Assembly: GCF_025336525.1 (NCBI RefSeq) | Contig: NZ_JAOCZP010000002.1 | Span: forward strand, 124,001 to 188,000 | Direction: 5' to 3' | Source: Chelativorans salis | GTDB taxonomy: Bacteria; Pseudomonadota; Alphaproteobacteria; Rhizobiales; Rhizobiaceae | DNA: 64,000 bases | Shown here: positions 50,295-62,277 of the stretch, piece after piece | Layout of the letters: each line of letters starts with the position of its first letter | Position numbering within the stretch: the stretch's first letter is position 1 | Made by a program: the position numbers and the translations under genes | The notes under the pieces: model-generated | Told to the model about the DNA's origin: nothing | Database searches by the model: none | The model's input: the letters and a program-made list of their open reading frames with translations, nothing else

Positions 50295-50428
50295 AGAGCT
50301 GAGATCGTGTCACAACTGGACGAGCGCTTGCCGGCGGCAGGCTTCGTCCAAAGCGTGGGCCGCGTTTCAGGGACGATATCGTCCTGTCAAGATCTGCACC
50401 ATGCTCGCTGGAGATGGCATCACCTGAG

Positions 50429-50900
50429 GGTCACTTCCGTCGCTCTTCCGGCTGCGTCGCGGGCGATGTCGACCATGGGAGAGAAGGTCCATCGTACGCC
50501 GTCCGCACGGGCTTCGACGGCGGCGACACGTGCCGCCCTTTCGACGAGGCCCGGATCCCAGGTTGCCGACAGCCCGAGCGGCGTAGGAAAGACAGTGCGG
50601 TATCCGTGGATGACGTCGAGGCCGAAGAGAAGCGGGATTTTCAGCCGGGACCGCTCGACCGCAATCTTCTGGTAGCGATTGGCCTCCTCGCCGGTTACGT
50701 TGAGGAAGGAGCCCACATGCACACCAGCGATCATCTCGTCATAGCTGTCGCGATTTGTGCCGGGACCGGTCGGCGCCCCGCCGGAATACTGGTTCAGCTG
50801 GCCAGCTTTTCCTGAAGCGTCATCTGCGCAAGCAGCGCCTCTACGCGCGCCTCGATGCCCGCATCACCGATCCATTCTTGCGCGCCGGGTTCATTCAGAT
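50429..50900 (-). pseudogene. Relic of a GH3 beta-glucosidase (BglX-like), N-terminal part
   Basis: Two frames join to give a GH3 start: EARVEALLAQMTLQEK in one frame, which ends at a TGA (50794-50796), then GQLNQYSGGAPTGPGTNRDSYDEM and MIAGVHVGSFLNVTGEEANRYQKIAVE, PLLFGLDVIHGYRTVFPTPL, FSPMVDIARD in the other. One base has been gained or lost near 50800-50808. After ARD the similarity stops (AAGRATEVTLR then stop), so roughly the last three quarters of the enzyme is missing. Clearly a dead gene. Confidence 0.75.
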
Positions 50901-51146: not shown

Positions 51147-51272
51147 GGAACCGATGATCGTGGTATGTGAGATTTTTATCTCTCCAAAATGCTAAATTAT
51201 GAGATCACAGTCGCTTCCTCAATTTGCAGCTTGGAAAGGCAGCTCTGTTTGGCTAAGAAATCGGGTATTGTG

Positions 51273-51911
51273 ATGAGCGCGTCGAAGACGACGAAAGTTG
51301 TTGGTGAAAAACTAACTCGGAGGGGGCTTCTGGCCAGTGGCCTTGCGTTCCTTGCGAGCGGGTGTGTCTCGGTGCCTCGGAGAGTCGCTGCTCCCGCCGC
51401 CAGCCCACCGGCCGATCCCTATGCCCGGATGGCTCAATTCGAGGTGGATCCGGTCTATCGTCGGCAACGCGTACCGTATGACGGGGCCGAGGGATCCGGA
51501 ACGATCGTGGTGGACCGCGGCAACCGCTTCCTCTATTTCGTTGAGGATGACAGCTGGGCCACGCGCTACGGTGTCGGTATTGGAAAGGAAGGACGTACGC
51601 TCTCGGGCAGGCTAAAGGTAGGGCGCAAGGCGGAGTGGCCTTCCTGGACTCCCACTGCCAACATGATGAAGCGAGAGCCGCGCTACCTGCAGTTTGCGGG
51701 CGGTGTCCCCGGCGGTATCCACAATCCGCTCGGCGCGCGGGCTCTCTATCTTTATCGAGGCGGTCGCGACACGATGTATCGGATACACGGCACCAACGAG
51801 CCGTGGTCGATCGGTCAGGCGGTATCGAGCGGGTGCATCCGTCTGACGAACGACGACATCATCCACCTTCACGATCGAACACCAGTCGGAGCGACGGTGG
51901 TCATCATCTAG
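51273..51911 (+). CDS. L,D-transpeptidase (YkuD) with Tat-like leader
   Basis: 212 aa. The leader TRRGLLASGLAFLASGC has twin arginines and a Cys that could be lipidated. The catalytic domain reads IVVDRGNRFLYFVEDD, then YRIHGTNEPWSIGQAVSSGCIRLTNDDIIHL, with the HxxN...SxGCxR active site. Such enzymes crosslink peptidoglycan 3-3 or attach proteins to it, from the periplasm. ATG 51273 fits the leader; the frame is open 28 codons upstream. Confidence 0.88.
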   Translation: MSASKTTKVVGEKLTRRGLLASGLAFLASGCVSVPRRVAAPAASPPADPYARMAQFEVDPVYRRQRVPYDGAEGSGTIVVDRGNRFLYFVEDDSWATRYGVGIGKEGRTLSGRLKVGRKAEWPSWTPTANMMKREPRYLQFAGGVPGGIHNPLGARALYLYRGGRDTMYRIHGTNEPWSIGQAVSSGCIRLTNDDIIHLHDRTPVGATVVII

Positions 51912-52207: not shown

Positions 52208-52348
52208 ATGAACAAGATTCTCATCGTTGTAGGGACTGCAATTGCAGTTGCTGGCCTTTCCGGCTGCATCGGCAAAGGCAAGGGAAAGGCGCCGCCGCCG
52301 GTCGCTGTGAGTGAGCCAGCGCCTGCGCCCGCACCGGTCTATAAGTAA
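52208..52348 (+). CDS. Small lipoprotein, 46 aa
   Basis: MNKILIVVGTAIAVAGLSGC is a classic lipoprotein signal with lipobox LSGC (Cys20), followed by a Lys/Gly stretch and a Pro/Ala-rich tail (PPPVAVSEPAPAPAPVYK). AGGGGAAGG lies about 8 bases before the ATG, and a strong hairpin follows the stop. Such short lipoproteins are common in rhizobial envelopes, function unknown. Confidence 0.75.
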   Translation: MNKILIVVGTAIAVAGLSGCIGKGKGKAPPPVAVSEPAPAPAPVYK

Positions 52349-52364: not shown

Positions 52365-52394
52365 ATGGATAAGGGCCATCGGGCCCTTATCCAT
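52365..52394 (+). terminator. Strong intrinsic-type terminator after the small lipoprotein
   Basis: ATGGATAAGGGCC (52365-52377) and GGCCCTTATCCAT (52382-52394) form a perfect 13-bp stem with a 4-base loop, followed by TTAAATTGG. It lies 16 bases after the lipoprotein stop. Confidence 0.7.
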
Positions 52395-52491: not shown

Positions 52492-53166
52492 ATGCTTGAA
52501 ATTGGCTCTATGATCGGCCGCTGGGTCCTCATCGGTTTCTTCGCCCTTTCCGTAGCTTCCTGCCAGACGAGCGGAGAGACGGGCGCGGTAGAGACTGTCC
52601 AAAACAGCTCCCTGCAGGACACTTCTCAGATTGTCATGCAGTCGGAACCGCCGGCGCATGGCGATGACTTGGCGACCGCGTCACCTCAGGGCGAAGGACA
52701 GTACTTCATTGAATTCCGCTCCCGTTACGCGCTGAGCTACGGTCATTCCTTCGTTATTTTCGGACGCCTGGATCAGGCAGGGAATATGATAAATCCCGAG
52801 GTTGCCGGCCTTCATCCGGCGTCCGACAGCGCTGTCCCATACATGCTCGGCCATCTGGTGCCGGTGCCTGCAGAGACCGGGTGGAGCGATGGTGACCTGG
52901 AAGACGAGTACATGTCGGCGAATTGGCGCGTGATGCTGAGCAAGCCAGAGTACGATAAGGTGGTCGCCTATATCCGCGATTTGCAGCGCGACTCGCCGAT
53001 GTGGCATGCAGCTTTGTATAACTGCAATGCTTTTGTGGGGGAGATCGCGAGCTTCATGGGATACAGAACTCCCTTCATCTGGCTCAAGCCGCAGGAGTTC
53101 ATCACTAAGCTACGCCAGATGAACGGCGGCGCGAATGCGATTGGCACCACCCGGCAGGCGGCCTGA
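52492..53166 (+). CDS. Lipoprotein with a putative permuted NlpC/P60 (papain-like) domain
   Basis: 224 aa. The leader WVLIGFFALSVASC gives Cys24 as lipidation site. After an acidic linker the domain reads YALSYGHSFVIFGRLD (His85) and, about 93 residues later, WHAALYNCNAFVGEIASFMG (Cys178). The order His first, then Asn-Cys-xx-Phe-Val resembles LRAT-like, permuted NlpC/P60 enzymes, which cleave or transfer acyl groups. This is inference from motif spacing; the protein may simply be an uncharacterised rhizobial lipoprotein. GGAG precedes ATG 52492. Confidence 0.7.
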   Translation: MLEIGSMIGRWVLIGFFALSVASCQTSGETGAVETVQNSSLQDTSQIVMQSEPPAHGDDLATASPQGEGQYFIEFRSRYALSYGHSFVIFGRLDQAGNMINPEVAGLHPASDSAVPYMLGHLVPVPAETGWSDGDLEDEYMSANWRVMLSKPEYDKVVAYIRDLQRDSPMWHAALYNCNAFVGEIASFMGYRTPFIWLKPQEFITKLRQMNGGANAIGTTRQAA

Positions 53167-53289: not shown

Positions 53290-53883
53290 ATGAACATCAC
53301 CCTGGACACGGCCGGCGAAGCTCTCTGGGTCGTGGGCGTGGTCGCCTGGTACATCATCCGCTATCCCTTCGAGCGCCGGGCCAGACGCGTACGGGTCGTA
53401 AGGAATGACCGCTCCCTTCCGGACACGGTTGGTTTGGCACTGGCTCTTTTCGGTCTTGCTATCTTCCCGGCACTCTACGTCTTCACGGGTTTCCCAGCAG
53501 CCGGCGATTATCCGGCCGGTCTGTCGACAATCGCTCTCGGGACCGCCTTCTTCTCCTGTGCTCTTTGGCTTTTTCGTAGTTCCCACAAAGCCCTTGGACG
53601 GAACTGGTCGATCAGCCTGGAAATACGTGAAAAGCACAAGCTTGTCTGCATCGGGCCATATGCCGTGGTCCGCCACCCGATGTATACGTCCTTTCTATTG
53701 ATGGCGGTCGGCCAGGCCCTTCTGCTGTCGAACTGGGTTGTCGCTCTGGCAGGATTGGCGGGTTTCGCATTTCTCTTTTTTCTGCGGATCGGCAAGGAAG
53801 AACATATAATGCTGGAGAGCTTTGGTCCGCAGTACCGTGCTTACATGGAGAGAACCAAGAGGATCATTCCCTATCTCTATTAG
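53290..53883 (+). CDS. Isoprenylcysteine carboxyl methyltransferase-family membrane protein
   Basis: 197-aa integral membrane protein with five or so helices. SLEIREKHKLVCIGPYAVVRHPMYTSFLLMAVGQALLLSNW is the SAM-binding signature of ICMT/PEMT-type methyltransferases, and EEHIMLESFGPQYRAYMERTKRIIPYLY is the usual C-terminus. It methylates a lipid or other hydrophobic substrate at the membrane. It is 12-15 bases from the next gene, forming a cassette with an E2-like acyltransferase and an SDR. Confidence 0.87.
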   Translation: MNITLDTAGEALWVVGVVAWYIIRYPFERRARRVRVVRNDRSLPDTVGLALALFGLAIFPALYVFTGFPAAGDYPAGLSTIALGTAFFSCALWLFRSSHKALGRNWSISLEIREKHKLVCIGPYAVVRHPMYTSFLLMAVGQALLLSNWVVALAGLAGFAFLFFLRIGKEEHIMLESFGPQYRAYMERTKRIIPYLY

Positions 53884-53898
53884 TGAAAGAGTGGCGTG

Positions 53899-54681
53899 AT
53901 GCGCGGTCGATCCGTAAAGCTTTCGGCGCCCAGGCGCCTCGTCGGCGACCTGATGAGATTTTCCATTGGAATTCCGAGGGTTACCGTCCAGCGGCGGATG
54001 CATCTTGGTCCACTGCTGGAGGCGAGAAAAGTACTGCATCCAAGGCCCTCGTGGACCGCGATTTTCCTGAAGGGCTATGCACTTCTGGCCTGTGAGACGC
54101 CGGGGCTGCGTCGTGCCTATGTTAAGTTGCCCTGGCCGCAGCTCTATGAATACCCCACAAGCGTCGCATCGATTGCCCATGAGCGGGACTATGAAGGCGA
54201 ACGTGCCGTCCTTCTGAGCCTTATCAAAGGCCCGGAGAGGTATTCCATCCCGGATCTGAACACCCGCTTGCTAGCGGCGCGCTCCCGCCCAGTCCTGAAG
54301 ATCAGGGAGTTCCGGCGTGCGTTGAAGTTTGCCCGCGCGCCGGCGCCGGTGCGACGGCTCCTTATGTGGTTGGGGCTCAACCTCGGACGGCAGCGGGCGA
54401 ACTTTTTCGGCACTTTCCAGTTCTCCGTCTATTCCGCACTTGGAGCGGAGTCCTTGAACCCGCTGACACCGTTGACGACACTTCTCAACTACGGCCCTAT
54501 CGGAGAGGATGGTTCCGTCGACGTCCGCATTCATTACGACCACCGGGTCATGGATGGCGCCGACGTCGCCCGCGCGCTGGAGAGGTTTGAAAACATTCTG
54601 AACGAAGCCGTCGCTAGGGAGTTGAATGAGCTTGCCAGCGATGTGGCCAGCCCCATAATTCAAAGCGAGCCGTGCAGGTAG
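53899..54681 (+). CDS. E2-like (2-oxoacid dehydrogenase) acyltransferase domain protein without lipoyl domain
   Basis: 260 aa. RFSIGIPRVTVQRRMHLGPLLEAR and, near the C-terminus, IHYDHRVMDGADVARALERFENIL carry the HxxxDG active-site motif of the CAT/E2 catalytic fold. There is no lipoyl or subunit-binding domain and no E1 or E3 gene nearby, so it is not part of a 2-oxoacid dehydrogenase complex. A free-standing acyltransferase acting on a CoA thioester is likely. ATG 53899 or GTG 53896 as start. Confidence 0.78.
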   Translation: MRGRSVKLSAPRRLVGDLMRFSIGIPRVTVQRRMHLGPLLEARKVLHPRPSWTAIFLKGYALLACETPGLRRAYVKLPWPQLYEYPTSVASIAHERDYEGERAVLLSLIKGPERYSIPDLNTRLLAARSRPVLKIREFRRALKFARAPAPVRRLLMWLGLNLGRQRANFFGTFQFSVYSALGAESLNPLTPLTTLLNYGPIGEDGSVDVRIHYDHRVMDGADVARALERFENILNEAVARELNELASDVASPIIQSEPCR

Positions 54682-54754
54682 GCCATGTGGTGGCGATTCG
54701 TGCGGAGGAGAAGGGCTTACCGGATGAGGACGATGCTAGCGCTGGAGCTGTGCC

Positions 54755-55681
54755 ATGAGCGCGCGGGGTGACTTGCGTCCCGCCGTGGTCGTCACCGGAG
54801 CCTCTGCGGGGATTGGGCGGGCGATCGCTCGGATTGCTGCGCGGGAAGGTAGCGCAATTGTCCTAATTGCACGCTCGTCAGACGGTCTTCAGGCCGTGGC
54901 GGAGGAGGTGCGTGAGGCGGGTGCCGAGAGCTTCACGCTCGAGCTGAACCTTCTGGCTGAGCATGCTCCCGCGCGCATCGAACGCTTTCTGTCAGAGCAA
55001 GGCCTCTTTTGCGATGTCCTCGTCAACTGCGCTGGCTATGGTCTGCGCGGTGCGGCGAACACCCTTCCCGTGGACGAGCAGATGGACATCATCAACCTCA
55101 ATATACGAGCCTTGAGCGATGTCACGCTACGGTTCCTGCCGGGTATGGCGGTGCGCCGGCGGGGCGGGATTATAAACTTCAGCTCTGTGGCCGGCTTCAC
55201 CCCCGGGCCCTACATGGCTGTCTACTACGCCAGCAAGGCATTCGTGCGCTCCTTCTCGCAGGCGCTACATGAGGAGGTTCGCCACGCAGGCGTGACGGTC
55301 ACATGCGTGGCGCCAGGACCGGTGCGGACGGAATTCTTGGGGGTCTCAGGGGCAAGACAGACAATCCTTTTCCGGTTCCTGCCGGCGCTTCCTCCTGAAG
55401 TGGTGGCCGAGAAAGCCTGGCGGAGCTTTAGATCCCGCCGCCGCTTCGTTGCCCCAGGTCTTTCGTCAAAGCTGGCAATTCTGACGGCCAGGCTGTTTCC
55501 TTCCTCAATGATGTTGCCACTTATCGCAAAGCTCCAGCGCCGTGGGAATGACCCATGCCCCTGCGGATCGGGCAAGAAGTTCAAGAAGTGCCATGGTGCG
55601 AAGCGGACCTCCCTTCAGCGGGGAACAACATTGAAAGCGCTATCTACAGGAAGTTCGAGGGATGGAAGCTCTTCTGTTTGA
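54755..55681 (+). CDS. Short-chain dehydrogenase with C-terminal SEC-C zinc motif
   Basis: 308 aa. The SDR part has TGASAGIG (14-21), NCAGYG, the catalytic Ser (FSSVAG, 142-147) and Tyr157/Lys161 (YYASK), followed by PGPVRTEFLG. A linker leads to NDPCPCGSGKKFKKCHG (Cys268, Cys270, Cys279, His280), the SEC-C zinc motif best known from the SecA C-terminus. The fusion is unusual. It lies 73 bases after the acyltransferase gene. Likely reduces a fatty or polyketide-like carbonyl; the role of SEC-C is unknown. Confidence 0.88.
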   Translation: MSARGDLRPAVVVTGASAGIGRAIARIAAREGSAIVLIARSSDGLQAVAEEVREAGAESFTLELNLLAEHAPARIERFLSEQGLFCDVLVNCAGYGLRGAANTLPVDEQMDIINLNIRALSDVTLRFLPGMAVRRRGGIINFSSVAGFTPGPYMAVYYASKAFVRSFSQALHEEVRHAGVTVTCVAPGPVRTEFLGVSGARQTILFRFLPALPPEVVAEKAWRSFRSRRRFVAPGLSSKLAILTARLFPSSMMLPLIAKLQRRGNDPCPCGSGKKFKKCHGAKRTSLQRGTTLKALSTGSSRDGSSSV

Positions 55682-60338: not shown

Positions 60339-60599
60339 ATGCAGGACAGGCGCGATTGGAAGAGACAGTATTTCGCCCCAGCCAACGACAAGGTGCGGCC
60401 GGGAGTGGAGAATGCCGAGGATGCTGACATTGCGCCTTGGCAGCGAATTGACAAGGCGGTGTTGTCCTTGGCACGGCTGATCGGGAGGCGCATGGCACGC
60501 GAGCAGCACGAGGCGTTGCAGAAGGCTCAGGCCAATGACAACGCACCGCCGGCCGGAAAGGCAAAGGAACACGTGCCGGAGGGCGGGAAAAAGGAATAG
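60339..60599 (+). CDS. Small basic protein preceding the recombinase
   Basis: 86 aa: MQDRRDWKRQYFAPANDKV, then VENAEDADIAPWQRIDKAVLSLARLIGRRMAREQHEAL (amphipathic helix) and a polar tail (KEHVPEGGKKE). Similar small genes appear upstream of serine recombinases in rhizobial islands, as far as can be recalled. Stop lies 19 bases before the recombinase start, so co-expression is likely. Confidence 0.6.
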   Translation: MQDRRDWKRQYFAPANDKVRPGVENAEDADIAPWQRIDKAVLSLARLIGRRMAREQHEALQKAQANDNAPPAGKAKEHVPEGGKKE

Positions 60600-60618
60600 A
60601 AGCAGAGAGGAGCAGCAG

Positions 60619-62244
60619 ATGATCCGCGTCGCGCTTTACGCCCGCTACTCGTCCGACAATCAGCGCGAAGCCTCTATCGTAGACCAGTTCCGGCTGTGCG
60701 AGGAGTATGCGGCGCGCGAGGGATGGACGATAGTCGAGCGCTACTCGGACGCGGCAATCTCCGGCTCCAGTATGATCCTGCGGCCGGAAATCCAGGAGTT
60801 GATTACAAGCGCCCAGAGAGGTCAGTTCGACATTGTGTTGGCGGAGGCACTGGACCGCCTGTCGCGCGATCAAGAGGACATAGCCGGGCTTTTCAAGCGT
60901 CTGCGCTTTGCAGGCGTAAAGATCGTGACCTTGTCCGAGGGCACGGTGGATGAACTCCACGTCGGCTTGAAGGGCACCATGAACGCGCTGTTCCTGCGTG
61001 ATCTGGCCGCCAAAATCAGACGTGGTCAAAGCGGTCGTGTCCTGAATGGCTATGCCGCTGGCGGCCTGTCCTATGGCTATCGTGTGGTCAAGAAGCTTGA
61101 TGAGCGTGGTGAGCCGATCCGTGGCCTTCGGGAAGTCGATGAGGATCAAGCCCAGATCGTTCAGAGGATTTTCCGAGAGTTTGCGTCCGGGATGTCTTCG
61201 CGGGCGATTGTTGCGGGGCTGAATCGAGACGGCATACCTTCGCCCTTTGGCGGGGAGTGGAACGCGTCGACCATCAATGGCAATCTCAAGCGGCGCAACG
61301 GCTTTCTCTACAACGAGGCCTATATCGGCCTCCTCGTCTTCAACCGTGTCAAGATGTTCAAGGACCCCGAGACCGGCAGGCGCATCTCGCGGCCAAACCC
61401 ACCAGAAAAGTGGCAGGTCGTCGAGGCATCGCATTTGCGTATCGTCGATGACGAGCTGTGGAACGCAGTGCACGCGCGCAAGAAGCTCTACGGTGGAGCA
61501 AAGCTCCATCATCGCCGACGGCCGAAGCACTTATTCTCCGGCCTTGTCCGGTGCGGCTGCTGCGGCGCGCCCTACACGGTTAAGAGCAAGGATCAGCTCT
61601 CTTGCTCGGCCCGCCGCCAAAAGGGGACCTGCGACAACGGCAGAACAATTCGTGTTGCAGAGGTTGAGCGACGTGTCCTTGAGGGCATCAAGAAGCGCAT
61701 GCTGGGTCCCGATGCCATCGCCGACTTCCTTGCCGAATATCATGCTGAACAGAAACGCCTGAACGCCGTGAATCGGCAGCGCCGTCGGCACGCTGAAAAG
61801 CGGATTGCCACTATAGAAAGGCAAATCCGCAATATTATCGATGCTATCGCCGACGGCATTGCGACGTCCGGCATGAAGTCGAGGTTGTTTGAACTGGAGC
61901 GCGAGAAGGAGAACTTGACTGAGGAGCTCAAGGTCATGGCGTCCGCGGAGAACATAGTGGAATTCCACCCGGCCTCGGTCGAAGCCTATCGACGGCGGAT
62001 TTCGGAGCTTCAGGGCGCGTTGCGCTCCGACGATAGCGACCGCCGTGAGGCGGCGAACATCATCCGCTCGCTGGTCACCGGAATTGAGATAATGCCAAAG
62101 GAAGGCAGGGGACAGGTGGAGTTAAGAGTGCATGGCGCGCTCGCGGAGCTAATCAACCTACCAAATCGCAAATCGGGTGAGGCGCCCAGGACTGTATTGA
62201 TGGTAGCGGAGGAGGGACTCGAACCCCCGACACAAGGATTATGA
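60619..62244 (+). CDS. Large serine recombinase (site-specific integrase)
   Basis: 541 aa. Resolvase domain: VALYARYSSDNQREASIVDQF with nucleophile Ser11, AISGSSMILRPEIQELI, and ALDRLSRDQEDIAGLFKRL. Then a recombinase domain, a Cys-rich zinc ribbon (RCGCCGAPYTVKSKDQLSCSARRQKGTCDNG), and a coiled coil (KRIATIERQIRNIIDAIADGI...LEREKENLTEELKVM). GGAG precedes the ATG. The last residues (AEEGLEPPTQGL) are encoded by the 3' end of tRNA-Met on the other strand, as expected for an integrase restoring or overlapping its target. Confidence 0.94.
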   Translation: MIRVALYARYSSDNQREASIVDQFRLCEEYAAREGWTIVERYSDAAISGSSMILRPEIQELITSAQRGQFDIVLAEALDRLSRDQEDIAGLFKRLRFAGVKIVTLSEGTVDELHVGLKGTMNALFLRDLAAKIRRGQSGRVLNGYAAGGLSYGYRVVKKLDERGEPIRGLREVDEDQAQIVQRIFREFASGMSSRAIVAGLNRDGIPSPFGGEWNASTINGNLKRRNGFLYNEAYIGLLVFNRVKMFKDPETGRRISRPNPPEKWQVVEASHLRIVDDELWNAVHARKKLYGGAKLHHRRRPKHLFSGLVRCGCCGAPYTVKSKDQLSCSARRQKGTCDNGRTIRVAEVERRVLEGIKKRMLGPDAIADFLAEYHAEQKRLNAVNRQRRRHAEKRIATIERQIRNIIDAIADGIATSGMKSRLFELEREKENLTEELKVMASAENIVEFHPASVEAYRRRISELQGALRSDDSDRREAANIIRSLVTGIEIMPKEGRGQVELRVHGALAELINLPNRKSGEAPRTVLMVAEEGLEPPTQGL

Positions 62245-62277
62245 TTCCTCTGCTCTAACCAACTGAGCTACTCCGCC
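62201..62277 (-). tRNA. tRNA-Met (CAU), elongator type
   Basis: 77 bases including encoded CCA. Read on the minus strand: acceptor GGCGGAG pairs with CTCCGCT (one G-U); D-stem GCTC/GAGC; anticodon stem GAGGA/TCCTT with loop ATCATAA giving anticodon CAT; T-arm GGGGGTTCGAGTCCC; discriminator A. It overlaps the last 44 bases of the recombinase gene. CAU could also be a lysidine-modified Ile tRNA, but the overall sequence looks like alphaproteobacterial elongator Met. Confidence 0.93.

Follow-up and report, generated by a model that had tools for sequence, protein, structure and literature searches.

What might a membrane methyltransferase, a free-standing acyltransferase and a reductase, encoded one after another, serve together? 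The question is raised by three genes of Chelativorans salis at positions 53290–55681 of a 64,000-nucleotide stretch of contig NZ_JAOCZP010000002.1 (positions 124,001 to 188,000, forward strand; assembly GCF_025336525.1), the whole of which is hereafter called the window. The original prediction, made from the letters of the window alone, took them for an undescribed cassette modifying a lipid or lipid-like metabolite. The three open reading frames (ORFs) do lie on the plus strand at the positions it gave, with gaps of 12 bases (15 if the second gene starts at an alternative ATG at 53899) and 73 bases, and encode a protein of the isoprenylcysteine carboxyl methyltransferase (ICMT) family, an acyltransferase with the fold of dihydrolipoamide acyltransferases (E2), and a short-chain dehydrogenase/reductase (SDR) with a SEC-C tail. 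The prediction missed a 46-aa lipoprotein encoded at 52208–52348 and two more upstream genes of the same block, an L,D-transpeptidase (LDT) and a larger lipoprotein here called LIPO. The reading favored here, at a probability of roughly 45%, is that the six genes serve the cell envelope as one locus, with the mini-lipoprotein attached to peptidoglycan and the three enzymes modifying a lipid or an acyl group associated with it.

Relatives of the E2 were collected by a family scan with one genome per species, and the best 80 of 101 (L005–L084), chosen by E2 alone, were compared with the window. These loci belong to Mesorhizobium, Rhizobium, Sinorhizobium/Ensifer, Chelativorans, Aquamicrobium, Ferirhizobium, and other Rhizobiales. 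The block has the order LDT, mini-lipoprotein, LIPO, ICMT, E2, and SDR/SEC-C, with the enzyme trio as its downstream half; the mini-lipoprotein and LIPO accompany E2 in all 80 loci, ICMT in 79, LDT in 77, and SDR in 74 (by tblastn, which found none in six loci; clustering alone had given 77). All six genes lie together on one strand in 72 loci, and ICMT, E2, and SDR share strand and order in 74, so the predicted trio is recurrent, but the recurring unit is the six-gene block. In 68 of the 74 loci with an SDR, the SDR gene has a possible start codon, ATG or GTG and in frame, that overlaps the E2 stop codon; the window itself has the 73-base gap. Flanking families that do not overlap the block genes each occur in at most 10 of the 80 loci within 8-kb flanks, some contigs ending inside that distance, with a divergent SDR as the exception, and the block was found on both chromosomes and plasmids with flanks unlike one another. 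The block is kept while its flanking genes turn over, and the six genes probably constitute one functional locus rather than mere neighbors. In the family sample, a GKGKGKAP pattern typical of the mini-lipoprotein lies no more than 1.8 kb from E2 in 28 of the 29 genomes with a close E2 (compared by hand); in one genome (G088, locus L223) the five larger block genes are present and the search with this pattern found no mini-lipoprotein.

The E2 was found in 4 of 16 genomes of the genus sample and 3 of 289 of the class sample (own genome counted in both), in 31 of 297 of the family sample (two of them divergent), and in 13 of 398 of the phylum sample, namely four of its own family (own genome counted) and nine from a single genus in a different family of the same order. 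A neighborhood search across distant genomes had been proposed with the original prediction; co-occurrence does recur, but the whole block was seen only within Rhizobiaceae in the GTDB sense, and farther out the arrangement is partial, with E2 alone, with E2 and SDR, or with E2 near a PEMT/ICMT-like gene. That all block loci come from this one family, with patchy presence (31/297 in the family, 4/16 in the genus), is what can be said for shared ancestry without functional meaning as the source of the arrangement; this explanation was already disfavored and is highly improbable, as the block persists amid changing flanks, the SDR start overlaps the E2 stop in most loci, and all or nearly all copies retain the catalytic motifs.

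Two further features accompany the block in other genomes. A second, divergent SDR of ∼254 aa is encoded on the opposite strand, usually just upstream of LDT, in 71 of the 80 loci; the window has no minus-strand ORF of at least 200 aa between 44267 and 55614, and hence no divergent SDR of that size. Additionally, one block (L093) lies on a 3.72-Mb record labeled pSymB (CP090106.1); with metG, tgt, and coaD surrounding the block, this record is probably a mislabeled chromosome.

The smallest gene of the block (52208–52348, plus strand) is unannotated in the window, and was reached through annotated plasmids in which a 39–46-aa protein is placed between LDT and LIPO. Its product has a lipobox (LSGC), a mature part of 27 aa, a GKGKGK repeat, a Pro-rich body, and the C-terminal residues VYK. 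Copies are present in all 80 loci, 79 recognized by a script and one (L028, lipobox LNAC) read by eye; a lipobox-like tetrapeptide, GKGKGK, and a C-terminal Lys each occur in 81 of 81 copies (80 loci and the window), the script having required K or R as the last residue. The endings are VYK (54 copies), VIK (14), ITK (9), VFK (3), and IYK (1), and the mature part has 20–30 residues (median 26) with a mean of 19% Pro. Differences among the copies at the three codon positions (0.22/0.12/0.51) fit a coding sequence.

Just 3′ of its stop codon lies a stem-loop of 13 pairs with a loop of 4 (52365–52394, plus strand). A stem of at least nine pairs follows the mini-lipoprotein stop in 70 of 80 sequences (the window and 79 loci), compared with 5.6% of shuffles, and by the same count follows LDT in 0/77, LIPO in 5/80, SDR in 5/74, and E2 in 22/80. 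From its sequence, this structure is possibly a terminator or an mRNA-stabilizing hairpin; a promoter and terminator scan for T-run terminators gave no signal above shuffles, and the stem-loop was not among its calls. In one study, a predicted small RNA candidate named sm6 is listed upstream of SMc01202, where the mini-lipoprotein gene would lie; its table row gives no microarray detection (PMC2573895).

The adjacent LDT (51189–51911, plus strand) has a YkuD domain (PF03734, E 2.7e-22) with the motif HGT...SSGCIR and is probably itself a lipoprotein, judging from an SGC lipobox found by eye. All 77 block copies have HG[TS]...S.GC[IVLM]R, i.e., the YkuD His, Ser, and Gly-Cys and the following Arg. 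The amidase DpaA is stated, in the portion of the paper at hand, to lack an Arg that LD-transpeptidases conserve (PMC12729407), which is assumed here to be the Arg after Gly-Cys. The genome of the window holds 15 YkuD matches in all. In one locus (L028, 5800–6800) the LDT is seemingly degraded, with a fragment of the catalytic region visible by eye in three-frame translation, beside an intact mini-lipoprotein.

The terminal Lys and the block-type LDT are associated. For the terminal Lys and TRANSPEPTIDASE, the GKGKGKAP pattern matched 49 places in 45 of the 297 family genomes; 36 places were analyzed and one (L218) was dropped as having no small lipoprotein, leaving 35, and the other 13 adjoin E2. 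Lys is the last residue of 20 of the 35 small lipoproteins, 19 of them with a block-type LDT nearby (63–100% identity); the 15 that end otherwise have none (0/15), two of them (L106 and L219) having another YkuD protein nearby at 39% and 43%. Since 15 of the 20 Lys-ending loci are the block itself, the fairer comparison is that outside the block, where a block-type LDT accompanies four of five Lys-ending lipoproteins and none of the 15 others. The five (L215, L216, L217, L225, which is L114, and L224, which is L100) have no ICMT, E2, or SDR nearby, and in four of them the LDT identity is 66–72%, that of L217 being a partial match. LIPO homologs stand beside 32 of the 35 small lipoproteins and are missing at L216, L217, and L224. 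L216 and L217, whose mini-lipoproteins are similar, belong to one genome (G177), which carries a copy of the block as well (L087, with no SDR detected). Mini-lipoproteins with G-K repeats ending in KG, NG, DG, or KP were also observed (L102–L106, L112, L113, L115–L119, L124, L195, L199, L219, and L220); these adjoin LIPO homologs and have no block-type LDT where one was searched for.

On this association and by analogy with Braun's lipoprotein (Lpp), the chances that the mini-lipoprotein is linked to peptidoglycan are put at about even. The mature Lpp has 58 residues and a long alpha-helical trimeric body. The mini-lipoprotein differs in its mature part of 20–30 residues, which is Pro-rich and does not share that long helical body, and with that length and Pro content it is hardly a long coiled coil. 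An extended chain spans ∼3 ångström per residue, and ∼26 residues would thus reach ∼75–80 ångström, near the span usually given for Lpp. The likeness to Lpp and its partners LdtA, LdtB, and LdtC of Escherichia coli is the combination of a small lipoprotein bearing a C-terminal Lys with a YkuD transpeptidase (PMC12729407, in part); the differences are that the transpeptidase gene is adjacent here, that LIPO, ICMT, E2, and SDR are added, and that the covalent link is here a predicted one. By their description in the same source, LimB27 of Coxiella burnetii and Lpg1810 of Legionella pneumophila are likewise envelope proteins bound to peptidoglycan via Lys, with Lys21 in LimB27 and a C-terminal Lys-Thr in Lpg1810 versus the terminal Lys of the mini-lipoprotein (PMC12729407).

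The mini-lipoprotein might instead be a small outer-membrane lipoprotein of the LptM, entericidin, or vesicle type, not linked to peptidoglycan and with another role for its terminal Lys. Some copies are weakly similar to LptM in NCBIfam and Pfam, below the cut-offs and only across the signal peptide and lipobox, the terminal Lys is missing from many relatives beyond the block, and Atu8019 of Agrobacterium tumefaciens, annotated as an entericidin, is described in the text available to us as partly surface exposed and involved in vesicle docking (PMC7296081). However, the terminal Lys tracks the block-type LDT outside the block (4/5 versus 0/15), and no entericidin model was among the matches listed up to an E of 1 for the mini-lipoprotein copies. 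Identity of this kind is accordingly considered unlikely.

LIPO (52492–53166, plus strand) is a lipoprotein in which the lipobox Cys24, His85 (in YGH), and Cys178 (in NCN) are invariant, and appears to be a remote relative of the permuted NlpC/P60 enzymes. The motif GH[ST]...NCN occurs in 80 of 80 loci, with the catalytic His preceding Asn-Cys as in Lnb (DUF4105), and in a 20-member alignment that includes distant relatives Cys24, His85, and Asn177-Cys178 are still invariant. Distant members match PPPDE, Lnb_N, and LRAT, all below cut-off (Lnb_N at 14.7 bits against 22.2 in one of them). When a LIPO profile was compared by hhalign with an Lnb_N profile from 13 proteins, the two aligned over 131 columns (probability 83.7, E 8.1e-6) with the His and Asn-Cys in register; a search of the LIPO profile against PDB sequences found nothing. 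The accessible text of one paper states that permuted NlpC/P60 enzymes act on lipids and that DUF4105 was identified as the lipoprotein N-acyltransferase Lnb of Bacteroides (PMC12994826). LIPO shares the order of His, then Asn-Cys, with Lnb, LRAT, YiiX, and Tox-Act1, a group acting on lipids or lipoproteins (PMC12994826, same portion); unlike Lnb, it is a lipoprotein of ∼220 aa that has no Pfam match of its own and does not pass the Lnb_N cut-off, the Lnb_N proteins compared being 280–830 aa. Judging from these motifs and the profile comparison, it is an evenly balanced question whether LIPO acts on an acyl group. A narrow script detected no small lipoprotein near 18 of 20 more distant LIPO relatives, so there are probably LIPO genes without such a neighbor.

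The enzymatic identities given by the original prediction were borne out. The first of the three (53290–53883, plus strand) matches PF04140 (E 5.1e-15) and, over nearly its whole length, the isoprenylcysteine carboxyl methyltransferase model NF040696 (247.6 bits against a cut-off of 160); an RHPxY motif is present in 79 of 79 copies, and the gene is disrupted in L020. The context is unlike that of isoprenylcysteine methyltransferases in that the Cys of the neighboring lipoprotein is at the mature N-terminus rather than the C-terminus, for which reason a prenylated CaaX peptide was rejected as substrate; no prenylated CaaX substrate is known here.

The second enzyme (53896–54681, plus strand) has the motifs DHRxxDG, which contains the predicted HxxxDG, and GTFxxS, both in 80 of 80 copies. 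PF00198 covers only ∼30 residues near its end (25.6 bits against a cut-off of 23). An AlphaFold2 model from a 29-sequence alignment, of medium quality (pLDDT 74.6), was matched by Foldseek to whole E2 catalytic domains in the PDB (E 2.7e-11, probability 1.00), with 12–20% identity to solved E2s among the 50 best structure matches; phmmer against PDB sequences gave chance-level matches, and a 40-member profile led to three E2s. Like dihydrolipoamide acyltransferases, it thus has the catalytic-domain fold and both motifs. Unlike them, no lipoyl or peripheral-subunit-binding domain was among the Pfam and NCBIfam matches listed. A 2-oxoacid dehydrogenase complex, already discounted in the original prediction, was rejected on this ground and because no E1 or E3 was found among the annotated neighbors.

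The third enzyme (54755–55681, plus strand) is a classical SDR (PF00106, E 6.7e-42) fused to a SEC-C zinc motif at residues 265–281 (55547–55597, plus strand; PF02810, E 8.8e-10, 38.7 bits against a cut-off of 20.4; CxCGSG...C). The SEC-C motif is found in 67 of 74 block SDRs and is absent, degraded, or cut short in seven, whereas GxSxGIG occurs in 73/74 and YxASK in 71/74. In most block SDRs the T of the TGxxxGIG cofactor motif is replaced by V, I, or L; the window keeps it. The best NCBIfam match across the whole SDR domain is mycolate reductase (NF040690), well below its cut-off (156.4 bits against 380), a family from which the SDR also differs in its SEC-C tail; to our knowledge these bacteria have no mycolates. 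Two other contexts were set aside: a polyketide or lipid cluster was rejected as the principal setting, as genes resembling polyketide synthase (PKS) or KAS III occur only near the distant L086 and L092, and hydroxybutyrylation of lipid A at its very-long-chain acyl group was dropped, a literature search having shown nothing that ties it to these genes.

At the level of the sequences, gene content, order, conservation, and intact catalytic motifs are established, and the following mechanism is proposed for the envelope locus. The mini-lipoprotein would be lipidated at its Cys and presumably sorted to the outer membrane, its Pro-rich body of ∼26 residues acting as an extended spacer. The neighboring YkuD LDT would join the C-terminal Lys to meso-diaminopimelate, comparable to LdtA/B/C acting on Braun's lipoprotein in E. 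coli. LIPO, as a permuted NlpC/P60-like thiol enzyme, would add, remove, or swap an acyl chain in the manner of Lnb or LRAT, on either the mini-lipoprotein or an adjacent phospholipid. The SDR may reduce the carbonyl of an acyl substrate, E2 may take that acyl group from CoA or a carrier protein and transfer it, and ICMT may methylate the product at the membrane, supplying a modified lipid or acyl group to the site. Acyl transfer, carbonyl reduction, and methylation near the membrane, as originally proposed, thus remain the likeliest chemistry. That ICMT, E2, and SDR serve the same structure as the mini-lipoprotein and LIPO is a tentative suggestion drawn from the enzyme families. A fuller version, in which the block is a Rhizobiaceae pathway for an unusual wall anchor, with a Lys-tied mini-Braun lipoprotein, a Lnb/LRAT-like LIPO remodeling its membrane end, SDR, E2, and ICMT making and capping its acyl group, and possibly recruitment of the SDR, through its SEC-C tail, to the ribosome or Sec path from which the lipoprotein emerges, is speculative and in its entirety unlikely.

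A number of observations weigh against the envelope reading, several of which speak for ICMT, E2, and SDR being an independent lipid-tailoring cassette, a mere neighbor of the LDT/mini-lipoprotein/LIPO module; such a cassette might, for example, esterify a membrane lipid or a very-long-chain acyl group, or cap it. The two halves can be found apart. The nine E2 genes of the other family have ribosomal protein S4 and aldolase-like genes recurring nearby (read from the sequences) and no LDT, LIPO, or ICMT match; in two of the nine, the only ones with SDRs, two SDRs follow E2, one of each pair sharing 47–48% identity with the window SDR and having no SEC-C. An SDR also adjoins E2 in L085, again without the envelope genes, and on the strength of these pairings E2 and SDR are the most widely shared pair seen. 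The distant E2 of L092 lies in a stretch with a phosphopantetheinyl transferase, a fatty-acid desaturase, a PEMT/ICMT-like gene, and a type I PKS-like gene (read from sequence), and a lipid or acyl connection recurs. Conversely, the envelope genes occur without E2: LIPO is found in 71 of the 297 family genomes versus 31 for E2, L215 and L225 are further loci with the envelope half alone, and L216 and L217, in one genome, have a Lys-ending mini-lipoprotein and LDT without LIPO or any of the three enzymes. Correlations of protein distances, computed without control for the species tree, are 0.83–0.85 within ICMT, E2, and SDR, compared with 0.69–0.72 with LIPO and 0.77–0.81 with LDT.

Transcription data from Sinorhizobium meliloti point the same way. 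The transcriptome of strain 1021 was sequenced in 2008 and 20 new genes were confirmed by RT-PCR, with no function given in the accessible part of the report (PMC2396165). VBISMc2171 (789 nt) matches E2 and VBISMc2174 (141 nt) matches the mini-lipoprotein by length, order, and spacing (1473 bases versus 1475 in L093), not by sequence, and SMc01200, SMc01202, and SMc01204 correspond to LDT, LIPO, and SDR by gene order, likewise not by sequence; ICMT would on the same ground presumably be SMc01203. The cassette is not wholly undescribed, contrary to what had been supposed. Table 2 of that report gives VBISMc2174 as co-transcribed with SMc01200 and SMc01202, and VBISMc2171 as co-transcribed with SMc01204 but with no upstream gene (PMC2396165), so that, by this gene-order matching, LDT, mini-lipoprotein, and LIPO form one transcription group and E2 and SDR another. 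Separate transcripts had been named as grounds for abandoning the predicted cassette; E2 and SDR are joined by RT-PCR, whereas no product spanning E2 and the gene upstream of it was detected, and, as far as that table goes, joint transcription of ICMT and E2 is not supported under the condition used (PMC2396165). The stem-loop after the mini-lipoprotein likewise suggests, from sequence, at least partly separate transcription.

Other points concern the parts of the proposal. LDT is absent from 3 of the 80 block loci (L020, L028, and L050) and SDR from 6, L224 has a terminal Lys yet no LDT or LIPO within 3 kb, and peptidoglycan linkage would not be general to the small-lipoprotein family, as many members outside the block end in KG, NG, DG, or KP. 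The loci are mutually related, and the block and Lys/transpeptidase counts do not represent independent events. The window LIPO matches no Pfam family at an E of up to 1, and among 31 members Pfam gave Lnb_N for three (best E 0.0012) and PPPDE for one; its AlphaFold2 model is poor (pLDDT 68.6) and Foldseek returned no confident PDB match. Rank 7 of that search, at a probability of 0.12 and not a confident match, is Aichivirus 2A, named solely because that protein has an H-box/NC motif. In the literature searched, which misses most subscription papers, no experiment on the function of the locus was found, and no covalent peptidoglycan link of the mini-lipoprotein was reported. The mini-lipoprotein and LIPO are nevertheless present in all 80 loci selected by E2, despite differing flanks, and an independent cassette is considered less likely than the envelope locus favored above.

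Elsewhere in the window, a 104-aa ORF (50420–50734, minus strand) lies between a TctA-family gene and LDT and is probably a gene remnant, since it matches only part of the glycoside hydrolase family 3 N-terminal domain (positions 25–132 of 316). Farther downstream, a large serine recombinase (60535–62244, plus strand; Resolvase, Recombinase, and zinc-ribbon domains) overlaps at its 3′ end a tRNA-Met gene (62201–62277, minus strand), which is possibly the end of an integrated element.

The comparison gives a recurrent genomic context to a free-standing E2-fold acyltransferase and to an SDR with a SEC-C tail, and presents LIPO, which stands beside most of the small lipoproteins analyzed (32/35), as a candidate lipid-acting lipoprotein family. 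For A. tumefaciens and related species, the available text states that Lpp is absent and that the outer membrane is tied to the wall by outer-membrane proteins (PMC11527210), which makes the anchor proposed for the mini-lipoprotein both surprising and testable. If it is true, the mini-lipoprotein with its own LDT would be a second kind of anchor between the outer membrane and the wall in these bacteria.

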